Source: Bacteroidota bacterium
GTDB taxonomy: Bacteria; Bacteroidota; Ignavibacteria; UBA10030
Length of the DNA stretch: 48,818 nt
Assembly: GCA_026416125.1 (NCBI GenBank)
Contig: JAOAFT010000016.1
Span: 1 to 48,818 of the forward strand
Reading direction: 5' to 3'
Of this stretch, positions 31,498 through 48,818 are shown one piece after another. Position numbers and translations under genes: made by a program. The number at the start of each line of letters is the position of its first letter. Positions within the stretch are counted from its first letter, which is position 1. The notes under the pieces were generated by a model that was not told where the DNA came from, searched no databases, and saw nothing but the letters and a program-made list of their open reading frames with translations.

Positions 31498-31974
31498 ATG
31501 ACACAAACTAAAGTCGCTATTCTCATGGGAAGTTCATCAGATATGGAAACAATGGAACCTGCGCGTCAGATGCTCAAGGAATTTGGTGTTGAATGTGAAG
31601 TAAAAGTGCTCTCAGCACACCGAACACCAGATCAGGCAATTCAATATGCCAAAGAAGCAAAAGAACGTGGCATACGCGTACTCATTGCGGGTGCAGGAGG
31701 TTCTGCTCACCTTCCGGGTGTACTTGCAGCAGTCTCTCTTCTTCCTGTCATTGGTGTACCAATCAAGTCAAAGGCTCTCAATGGTCTTGATTCGCTTCTC
31801 TCGATTGTGCAAATGCCAGCAGGGATACCGGTAGCAACTGTAGCGATTGATGGTGCTGCGAATGCAGCGCTACTTGCAATACAAATGCTCGCTCTCCAAG
31901 ACGAGTCCCTTTTTGAAAAACTTCAACAGTACAGGAAGAAACTACAAGAGAAAGTTCTCCAGGCAAACCAGTAA
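31498..31974 (+). CDS. purE: N5-carboxyaminoimidazole ribonucleotide mutase PurE
   Basis: Converts N5-CAIR to CAIR in de novo purine synthesis. The 158-aa length is typical of class I PurE. Seen: [10 protein letters not shown] (10-19), SAHRTP (39-44, with catalytic His41), [15 protein letters not shown] (about 66-80) and [25 protein letters not shown] lies 8 nt before the ATG; a longer in-frame extension into sua5 is rejected. No purK is next to it. A strong terminator follows. Confidence 0.97.
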
Positions 31975-44933: not shown

Positions 44934-45698
44934 TTATAATCTTCGAGTGGGACCAAGATCGGTAAGTTGCGCCTCGTTAATTCGCCAAAGTGTTTGGCAA
45001 GGGAAACAATTTTCGTAGAGAGGCTTTCCTAAAATAATTGAGTCAACCCCATACTTTTCGAGTGTTTGGAGTCGAACAAGATCCTGGTAATTCCAAACAC
45101 CGCCACGTACAGTTACTCGTACACCAGTTTTGGTAACAAGTTCTTTGAGCATATCATAGGGGAGTGTTTTCCCAATGATACCTTCTTCGCGTTCACCATA
45201 CACAATGCGAGAAACACCAAGGTTTGCCATCTGAATTGCAAGTTCTATCGGAGAAATCTCAGCAGTTGTTGTACCACCTTTAATGATAACTTTTCCTGAC
45301 TCCGAAACAATACCTACTGCAATTTTCCGTGTGCCAAATTCTTTCACAAAGTCTTCTATAATTTTAGGATTTTCAACAGCGGCGGTATTGAGAATAATTC
45401 TGTACACACCTAAACTTAGTACTTTTTGAATTTCTTCGTACGTCCGAAGTCCACCAGAAACCTGTATTGGTATATCGACTGCATCGACCATCTGCTTGAT
45501 AATTTCATAGTTAACAATGCGACCTTCAGCTGCACCATCCTTATCAATTACGTGTATTGTTTTCGCATTTTCACCTCGCCAAAGGATGGCCATTTGTACC
45601 GGATCAACAGAGTATCGATGTTCCATACCCGGTGCTCCGTGTACAAACTCAACACATCGATGTTTGCTTATTTCAATGAGTGGGTAAATTAGAATCAT
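44934..45698 (-). CDS. HisA/HisF-superfamily beta/alpha-barrel protein lacking HisA catalytic residues
   Basis: A 254-aa (beta/alpha)8 protein of the HisA family, from the ATG at 45698. Matches to HisA include the second strand region TIHVIDKDGAAEG (E. coli HLVDLTGAKDP), QVSGGLRT and ILNTAAVENP. The HisA catalytic aspartate of PALDL is Glu here (PLIEI), the second catalytic Asp of ALDVR is Val (GIVSE), and the TDISRDGTL loop is YGEREEGII. So phosphate-binding glycines remain, but the isomerase residues do not. It is thus probably not a histidine enzyme. It heads the cluster with a PfkB kinase and lysC. An in-frame TTG at 45737 lies in a terminator-like hairpin and is rejected. Confidence 0.8.
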   Translation of the reverse strand: MILIYPLIEISKHRCVEFVHGAPGMEHRYSVDPVQMAILWRGENAKTIHVIDKDGAAEGRIVNYEIIKQMVDAVDIPIQVSGGLRTYEEIQKVLSLGVYRIILNTAAVENPKIIEDFVKEFGTRKIAVGIVSESGKVIIKGGTTTAEISPIELAIQMANLGVSRIVYGEREEGIIGKTLPYDMLKELVTKTGVRVTVRGGVWNYQDLVRLQTLEKYGVDSIILGKPLYENCFPCQTLWRINEAQLTDLGPTRRL

Positions 45699-45712
45699 AC
45701 ACTGTTTGTGTA

Positions 45713-45751
45713 TAAATAAATATAAAAGCTCAACCAACTCTGTGGTGAGCT
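45713..45751 (-). terminator. Terminator or attenuator before the HisA-like operon
   Basis: On the minus strand AGCTCACCA pairs with TGGTTGAGCT (9 bp, one bulged T, 6-nt loop; 45751-45727) and is followed by TTTTATATTTATTTA. It lies 15-53 nt before the HisA-like ATG. It could end the glycosidase transcript or act as an attenuator in the leader of the lysine cluster. Confidence 0.65.
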
Positions 45752-45861: not shown

Positions 45862-46653
45862 TTAATTTTGCACTGATTGAAGCATGTTGAGAAGAAGCCG
45901 TTGCCCGACAACATTTGCAGCTTCTCGGTTGTTTTGAAGCTCTTTGAATGCAGCTGTTTGGCCTTCGCTATCGTGAATGGGAGGTTGAGAAAGAGCAGCC
46001 CTAATACATGCAAACATGTCGAGTGCACAGAGGATTATTCTTCCACGTCCAGTTGGAATGATGCTTAATGCTGAGTAAACTTCTCTTTTATGGTCTGCTA
46101 CGCAACCTACAATAGTTTCACCGTTATGTACTCTCAAACCGATACGATTCCGTTCGTACGTAGCAAAACATTGATACTCCCAGTTAAACACACACGCCTG
46201 AGGCAAACCTCTAAAGAGTGTGTGGTGCTTTACAAAGTAGTTCCCACCATACCATGTTTTCCCAAGGACTTGGTACCCTCGGTAGTCCAGAATTTCTTTC
46301 TGAGCTAAGTACTCAGCCCACTTCGTAGCTGTGTTGACAATGATGAGCGTGTTTCCATTATTTACCCACTCGAGGATATCGGTAACGAGGGGTTTATCCG
46401 GGGGCGGATTAAATGCTCCAACAAGAAGCCATTTCCCGTGTGGCATACCTTTCGAGTACTCTTTAAAGTTCGTAATACCTTTCGATCGTAAAAATGATTG
46501 GAGAATACCCGATGTATCGGCAACCATTCCATCCGGAAAGTTATAAGGAATATTGAGTGAAACAGCAAATACAGTATCTGCACCTTCAGTAATGAGACGG
46601 TTCCCTGAAATGAGTGCAGCGTGGACAGCTGTGTACCCAGGATGGCGAAGTAG
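45862..46653 (-). pseudogene. C-terminal part of the glycoside hydrolase, downstream of an in-frame TAG
   Basis: Reading on in the same frame directly after TAG at 46656-46654 gives 263 codons with no stop until 45862: LLRHPGYTAVHAALISGNRL and onward. The first 40 residues look like the end of an Ig-like domain (GYTAVHAAL, ADTVFAVSL), and the rest is alpha/beta with LVTDILEWVNNGNTLIIVN, resembling the Rossmann-like trimerisation/GATase-like domains found on beta-galactosidases. An internal ATG at 46527 could start a separate 221-aa protein, but the conserved-looking stretch starts before it and it has only a poor Shine-Dalgarno. The best reading is that this was once, or still is, joined to the upstream part. 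Confidence 0.75.
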
Positions 46654-48818
46654 CTATTTATACCGTGGAAGAATGAGTTCACCATACGTTGCTCCACCTG
46701 TTATAGTAACAGAGTAATCATCTTTGGCAAGAACTCCAAGGGAATCTAACACAGTTACACGGAGGGTATAGGTCCCATTGAGATTTACCTGGTTAACGAT
46801 GTAGAAGTCAGCAATGAGTGTATCGGTGGATGCAGTGACTTTATTTGGAATTTTTATTGCAATATACAATGGTTGGAGATAGTACGAAAGTAACCGTGGA
46901 TTTCCTTTAAAGTTGCGATAGTTATCTACAATCCCTGAATGATTCTCAAGCATCATACTTTCCCAACCATTAATTGCATAGCCATCCGCAATGTTGTTAA
47001 TGCGAATGTTTTCAATGGCTCTTCCTTGGTAGTAGTATGCAACGTTTCCCATCGCGCAGGTAAGCTCATCTACGTTTCTAAAGGCGGAGGTGAAACCATG
47101 TTTTTTCAAGAATGTATCATACGCTTCATACCATTCGAGGTATGCAGCTGTTTCCCAACCGCGTTGTTTCCCTGTTTTTTGTATTTCATTGTAGATAAGT
47201 TGAAGACGTGGCGGAGTACCAATAGCTCCTTCCTCTCCCCAGTAAATAATTTCATCTGTTTTGTTTGTGTAGCGAATGTACTGGTTAGGGTTAACGTATA
47301 CCCCATTGTGGTAAACACCTGGCCCACCTGCGTGATGTTGGTCGAACCAGCCATAGTCATAGAAATTTGAATCGTAAGGGAGCATGTGAAGTTTGAACTG
47401 AGGGTCAGGCCCCATTTTTATTTCACCGTTACATGAGTTGTATGTAAGAATACGAGTTTCATCAAGTTTATGGGCATCAGCCATATCTATGCTGTCTTGA
47501 AAACTTGGCAGTGCCGCTCGTTCGTTGTGGAGGTTATAGATGATAAGCGATGGATGATTCCGATCACGCTTAATCATTCTGAATAGTTTCTCACGACGAC
47601 ATGGGATGTAAAAATTTCGCTGTTTTTGTTCCAAAGTATTCTTTGGAGTGAAAAGTTCGTAAGGGTATTGGTACCCACCCGGTTCCTCAAAATAAAGTAG
47701 ACCAAGTTCGTCAGCGTAATCGAGAACATTACTTGAACCAATTGTTCGATGGAAATTCAACATATTCAAACCAAGTTCTTTCGCAGCTTTTATTTGTTTT
47801 TTAGCCATTTCATCGGTAGGTGCTATACCGTTTAGAGGCCAGAACCCCCACGATATAGCTGTGAAAAGGACGATTCGTTTTCCATTCAAGTAGAACTGTT
47901 TATCACCGTTTATAGTTCGAACTTCAAACCATCGGAATCCAAACCGTTGTGAATAGAGATCTTTTGTTGAAGAGCCATTCCATTGGACGTTAAGGACATA
48001 AAGATGTGGTGATTCCGGACTCCATAATTTTGCTTGTTCTAGTTTAAGAGTATGTGTTATAAGAGTCTGTGTATCGAACGGTGGTACTTGGAGTGTCGTT
48101 GTAAGTAATGGTTTTGAGTTTTTTGAACCCCACTCAAACAGTGAGAAGGTGAGCATCCCAGGTTCGGAGGGAATACCACTATTTTTGAGAGTTACAACAA
48201 CATCGACCTCGTGTACTTTTGGTTTATTTTTAATAAATACATCATCGATGAAAATGGGGTCTGTTGCAATGAGTTTTACTTTTCCTGTAATACCACCGAA
48301 GCCATGTGATGGAATAGTACGGTACTCACCCCATTGGAACGTTCGAGAATCACGCCAATCAAAGTTACCATTAGGATCTGTTATTCGTACGGCAAGATGG
48401 TTCAGCTTACCAAATGTGACAGCGTCTGTTATGTCAACATCGAATGGAGTGCTGTTTACTATGTCGTAACCGACAAGTTTCTTGTTAACGAAAACTTCTG
48501 CTCTGAACCGTACGCTTTCAAAGTGAAGTACAATTCGTTTTCCCTTTAAAGATGATGGTACGGGAAAGATTGTTGAGAACCACGAAACGCCTAGGTAATT
48601 CCCAGTAACACCAAAGGTACTTCCCTGTGTTCCCCAGAAATATTCTTCTACAGTTGCAGGAAGATGTGTTCTAACAAACTTTTTGGCATTCTCGAGCATT
48701 TCCCACCCTCCTGTTGGAATGTTTACCGGTAACGTTGAAATATTTACTGGAGGGAGGTAAAGGGAGTCATTTTGCCACTGAGCAGATTCATCGAGTACGA
48801 TTTTCCAACTATTTGTGC
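46654..48818 (-). CDS. Glycoside hydrolase family 2 enzyme (5' end outside the window, ends at in-frame TAG)
   Basis: Beta-glycosidase of the GH2 (beta-galactosidase/glucuronidase) clan, likely acting on plant or algal polysaccharide. The frame stays open to the right edge (WKIVLDESAQW before the first visible Met), so the ATG at 48699 is internal despite AGGAGG before it. Counting from 48699: jelly-roll sugar-binding domain (about 20-180), Ig-like domain (about 190-270), then a TIM barrel with acid/base Glu in YNLHNERA (about 391) and the likely nucleophile Glu in YWGEEGAIG (about 488). Another Ig-like domain leads to ILPRYK and TAG, where the same frame continues. Substrate cannot be assigned from sequence. 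Confidence 0.85.
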   Translation of the reverse strand, partial: TNSWKIVLDESAQWQNDSLYLPPVNISTLPVNIPTGGWEMLENAKKFVRTHLPATVEEYFWGTQGSTFGVTGNYLGVSWFSTIFPVPSSLKGKRIVLHFESVRFRAEVFVNKKLVGYDIVNSTPFDVDITDAVTFGKLNHLAVRITDPNGNFDWRDSRTFQWGEYRTIPSHGFGGITGKVKLIATDPIFIDDVFIKNKPKVHEVDVVVTLKNSGIPSEPGMLTFSLFEWGSKNSKPLLTTTLQVPPFDTQTLITHTLKLEQAKLWSPESPHLYVLNVQWNGSSTKDLYSQRFGFRWFEVRTINGDKQFYLNGKRIVLFTAISWGFWPLNGIAPTDEMAKKQIKAAKELGLNMLNFHRTIGSSNVLDYADELGLLYFEEPGGYQYPYELFTPKNTLEQKQRNFYIPCRREKLFRMIKRDRNHPSLIIYNLHNERAALPSFQDSIDMADAHKLDETRILTYNSCNGEIKMGPDPQFKLHMLPYDSNFYDYGWFDQHHAGGPGVYHNGVYVNPNQYIRYTNKTDEIIYWGEEGAIGTPPRLQLIYNEIQKTGKQRGWETAAYLEWYEAYDTFLKKHGFTSAFRNVDELTCAMGNVAYYYQGRAIENIRINNIADGYAINGWESMMLENHSGIVDNYRNFKGNPRLLSYYLQPLYIAIKIPNKVTASTDTLIADFYIVNQVNLNGTYTLRVTVLDSLGVLAKDDYSVTITGGATYGELILPRYK

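Follow-up and report, generated by a model that had tools for sequence, protein, structure and literature searches.

An in-frame TAG codon divides a GH2 glycosidase gene at the end of a contig in a bacterial draft genome

Results and discussion

Structure of the locus

The stretch of DNA analysed here (hereafter the window) is an entire contig of 48,818 bases, one of the 77 contigs that make up a draft genome of 2.41 Mb with an estimated completeness of 98.65%. At its far end the minus strand carries a gene for a GH2 glycosidase, visible as a reading frame from 48816 down to 45862 that is divided by a single in-frame TAG (Table 1). The gene runs off the contig at 48818 and hence misses its 5' end; the TAG lies 2.2 kb from the contig end. 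Judged from its relatives, the full gene would comprise about 1,050 codons. A first-pass annotation of the same DNA had drawn attention to this TAG and the long open frame behind it, and both its coordinates and its codon count are correct.

A search of the genome's other contigs for the missing N-terminus gave no match beyond the window itself, and the sequence at the contig end does not recur in the genome. A search of the genome for a second GH2 copy able to explain the lesion yielded distant paralogues only (26-29% identity). Around the TAG we find four promoter-like sites against 2.8 expected, and no terminator-like site. Directly downstream of the GH2 gene lies a HisA/HisF-family gene (PF00977; window positions 44934-45737). 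Next to it are a PfkB-type kinase and several consecutive genes of the lysine pathway (aspartate kinase, DapB, DapA and DapD types).

Table 1. Parts of the divided GH2 gene, in window coordinates
Feature	Position	Strand	Remarks
GH2 gene, part 1 (sugar-binding, Ig-like and TIM-barrel domains, first strands of the C-terminal Ig-like domain)	46657..48816	-	720 sense codons; Pfam PF02837, PF00703 and PF02836 over cut-off; 5' end lost at contig end
In-frame TAG at visible residue 721, in predicted beta strand 712-722 of the Ig-like domain	46654..46656	-	hydrophobic residue in 71/71 aligned relatives
Remainder of the same GH2 gene (final Ig-like strands and C-terminal alpha/beta domain)	45865..46653	-	263 sense codons; 54/54 near-invariant residues kept
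Natural stop of the full-length frame, TAA	45862..45864	-	roughly the same end point in most relatives

Domains and predicted structure

The part ahead of the TAG (the head) resembles GH2 enzymes in its sugar-binding, Ig-like and TIM-barrel domains, each with a Pfam match over its cut-off, which bears out the earlier assignment to this family. Catalysis in GH2 relies on two glutamates, the acid/base in an N-E motif and the nucleophile. N431-E432 and E528 are present in the window and each is found in 71 out of 71 relatives; E432 and E528 would form the catalytic pair.

We predicted the structure of the visible protein with AlphaFold2 from 24 sequences, the underlying alignment drawing on 23 of the 73 related loci described below (mean pLDDT 80.3, pTM 0.80). 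In the model the strand that holds the TAG position is followed by two further strands of the same sandwich (727-737 and 740-752) and by an alpha/beta part that starts at approximately residue 763. We read this sandwich as Ig-like from the order of its strands and from what the GH2 fold looks like. The predicted catalytic domain is intact and lies wholly ahead of the TAG. The model thus agrees with the first-pass expectation that the rest of an Ig-like domain and a further alpha/beta domain are encoded behind the stop.

The best Foldseek match of the model is PDB 8u01, a GH2 enzyme of Phocaeicola plebeius (E 2.3e-35). Residues 1-984 of the visible model align with this structure over 773 residues (Z 22.3, rmsd 3.6), though at a low identity of 16%, and the window's copy differs by its in-frame TAG and missing 5' end. 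As modelled, head and tail together look like a known GH2 architecture. In the alignment of the full visible model, 8u01 also seems to contain the tail region. The 263-residue tail on its own has no match in Pfam or NCBIfam up to an E-value of 1, and among PDB sequences only an irrelevant one (E 0.077). The tail is conserved in dozens of Bacteroidota GH2 enzymes; those of two relatives likewise give no match over the Pfam cut-off.

Relatives across the site

Scanning genome contigs with the tail yields 73 loci, mostly from Bacteroidota, with up to 61% identity over approximately 255 residues. In 71 of them one full-length open frame of 979-1307 amino acids passes through the site, which confirms that the two pieces in the window belong to one gene. 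These 71 loci form our alignment of relatives, and at the column of the TAG they have phenylalanine (35), leucine (14), isoleucine (13), valine (7), tyrosine (1) or tryptophan (1), so that a hydrophobic residue takes the place of the stop in every case. A sense codon within one frame, as expected if the TAG marks a recent nonsense pseudogene, is therefore found in all aligned relatives. The alignment leaves out two loci. The first (L078) is cut by the start of its own contig, but is open through the site with phenylalanine there. The second (L079:6001-6381, from a Bacteroidales MAG) is limited to the 126 C-terminal residues of the tail; a TGA precedes them, and no head lies within 6 kb upstream. 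This second locus does not reach the site and is described here as a putative remnant or rearranged copy. Two relatives have frames of 1307 codons, one running on for 267 codons past the tail (L054) and the other being longer upstream (L071). Both are possible fusions.

Since these loci were found through the tail, tailless relatives could not appear among them, and a search based on the head was run for that reason. Among 395 genomes of the phylum it finds seven relatives besides the window's own gene (E up to 1e-100), with frames of 1021-1228 amino acids in which head and tail share one frame according to tblastn. None of the seven stops at the site. Relatives that end there naturally, followed by a separate downstream gene, would have spoken against a split gene; they were looked for in these genomes and not found.

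The distribution of the tail is patchy. No match is found in 30 out of 31 genomes of the same family and the remaining one is weak (E 5e-5), while tails of 52-61% identity occur in Hymenobacter, in Chitinophagaceae-type genomes and in one Ignavibacteriae genome of the same order. Judging from these sequences, lateral gain is possible, as is loss in the other genomes of the family. The 98 genomes of the order that we examined include no other member of the same genus.

A division of the gene into two proteins, with the tail starting at the ATG at 46527, is hardly credible. An in-frame ATG is indeed available 43 codons past the TAG, but nothing marks this codon out within the protein (methionine in 25 of the 71 relatives, otherwise serine, leucine, valine and others) and the coding sequence continues unbroken ahead of it. 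Moreover, a start at 46527 would drop the last predicted strands of the Ig-like domain.

Conservation past the TAG

Constraint on the tail was compared with that on the head using columns conserved among the relatives. For near-invariant columns (95% of the relatives) the window keeps 206 out of 212 residues before the TAG and 54 out of 54 after it. At 90% these numbers are 265/280 and 70/72, and at 80% they are 312/337 and 91/103; at this last level only eight of the 71 relatives keep a smaller share after the site. The ratio of tail to head identity of the window ranks tenth lowest of 72. In the tree the window forms a long lone branch, and its tip accounts for 2.4% of the tree before the TAG against 2.6% after it. 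The mild extra divergence of the tail could reflect slightly relaxed constraint, or simply a protein terminus that varies on a long lone branch.

Because there is no clear decay past the TAG, the stop must be recent, false or tolerated. No other lesion is seen in the visible part of the gene, and as far as the sequence can tell the lesion is either single and young or false.

Use of TAG in the genome and the case for readthrough

We scanned the window and 20 further stretches of 20 kb (448,818 bases in total, approximately 19% of the genome) for other split genes. In a first version of the scan, with 345 gene-like frames, many same-frame continuations were merely neighbouring genes. The scan reported here uses an additional background model and takes into account how far away the first start codon is and how well the first 40 codons score as coding. 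It counts 326 gene-like frames. Splits are detected when the first piece has 120 codons or more and the second 50 or more; smaller ones escape the scan. Out of 70 continuations scored, those with a total score above approximately 0.05 were listed. The GH2 gene is the only one of the 326 frames where the continuation codes from its first codons and lacks a start among the first 20 (the first is at codon 42). One other listed case, at window positions 31972-31974, also has no start in its first 20 codons (the first is at 29), but its first 40 codons are not coding-like. Given that the tail matches relatives and that this is the sole such case among the frames scanned, the split gene is far beyond chance.

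TAG is a normal stop in this genome, as the first-pass annotation had stated: in the initial scan it ends 73 of the 345 gene-like frames. The four examples given at the time (1626, 2405, 7222 and 15674) are all TAG triplets; the last three end listed frames, whereas the one at 1626 ends an open run of 85 codons. The suppressor tRNA(CUA) proposed as a target for searching did not turn up. Among 42 tRNAs (RF00005 matches, typed with ARAGORN) none has a CUA anticodon, although with the genome 98.65% complete a miss is possible; the tRNA-Leu whose anticodon is tag decodes CUA rather than UAG. For PylS, the model TIGR02367 scores far below its cut-off (22.3 of 178.15 bits). Reassignment would need in-frame TAG codons to recur in genes, and in the part of the genome scanned a single frame has one. 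Genome-wide amber recoding, already judged unlikely in the first pass, is rejected on the tRNA set, the PylS search, the use of TAG as a normal stop and the split-gene scan of approximately 19% of the genome taken together.

Suppression or programmed readthrough confined to this gene, giving a major short form and a minor long form, is improbable as well. The tail does look selected, which Belinky et al. 2021 (PMC7918605) take as a sign of possible readthrough in bacteria. Against this, the site holds a residue and never a stop in all 71 aligned relatives, no CUA tRNA or PylS over cut-off was detected, and no second gene of this kind is seen among the 326 frames. Programmed readthrough would moreover be expected to show a stop conserved in relatives and a signal 3' of it; no relative has the stop and the RNA 3' of the TAG folds like shuffled sequences (z 0.05). 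We regard it as very improbable that a genuine TAG is routinely bypassed at low frequency, so that a short GH2 form without the C-terminal domains exists beside a minor long form.

Mutation or assembly error

The best account of the locus, to which we assign a probability of roughly 0.63, is a recent nonsense mutation, fixed in the strain or present as a population variant, that truncates the GH2 glycosidase gene. A codon for a hydrophobic residue would have changed to TAG, and ribosomes would stop there. The product would retain the whole catalytic domain but with an unfinished Ig-like sandwich and without the C-terminal alpha/beta domain, and would probably be unstable or inactive. The sequence past the TAG would have had little time to decay so far. 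We infer that the organism itself carries the TAG; the truncated product is presumably non-functional.

The main rival, which we consider less likely but clearly ahead of readthrough or fission, is an error in the consensus or assembly, in which case the cell carries a normal full-length GH2 gene. An assembly error would give the same picture as a real mutation: a lesion of one codon without clear decay beyond it. The draft state of the genome with its 77 contigs and the closeness of the site to a contig end are in line with such an error, as is the cutting of the gene by that end, albeit that the end has no second copy in the genome and the N-terminus was not found on another contig. Nothing speaks directly against it. 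Still, just one such split occurs in the 448,818 bases scanned, so this type of error is not frequent in the assembly, and substitutions outside homopolymers are not the commonest kind of assembly error.

Among the options raised in the first pass, a recent nonsense mutation and a sequence error both fit the data, whereas nothing speaks positively for suppression or programmed readthrough. As for phase variation, no repeat tract is reported near the site by a search that omits units of one to three bases, and the sequence there contains no long homopolymer.

Published parallels and implications

According to Belinky et al. 2021 (PMC7918605), in-frame stops occur widely in bacterial genes, for the most part do not last long, and in many instances leave purifying selection in place; the GH2 TAG therefore fits a known kind of event. 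As in the cases treated there, a single stop interrupts a frame that is otherwise open, the sequence past it shows no clear decay, and the gene belongs to carbohydrate metabolism. The difference is that their stops are common to at least two species, whereas the stop in the window is found in one genome only. The event is thus an ordinary one and points to no novel decoding.

Readthrough would become relevant only with proteomic evidence of the long form. The consequence is mainly one for annotation: both open frames belong to a single gene that should be flagged as disrupted, and the genome should be kept off any list of TAG-recoding genomes.
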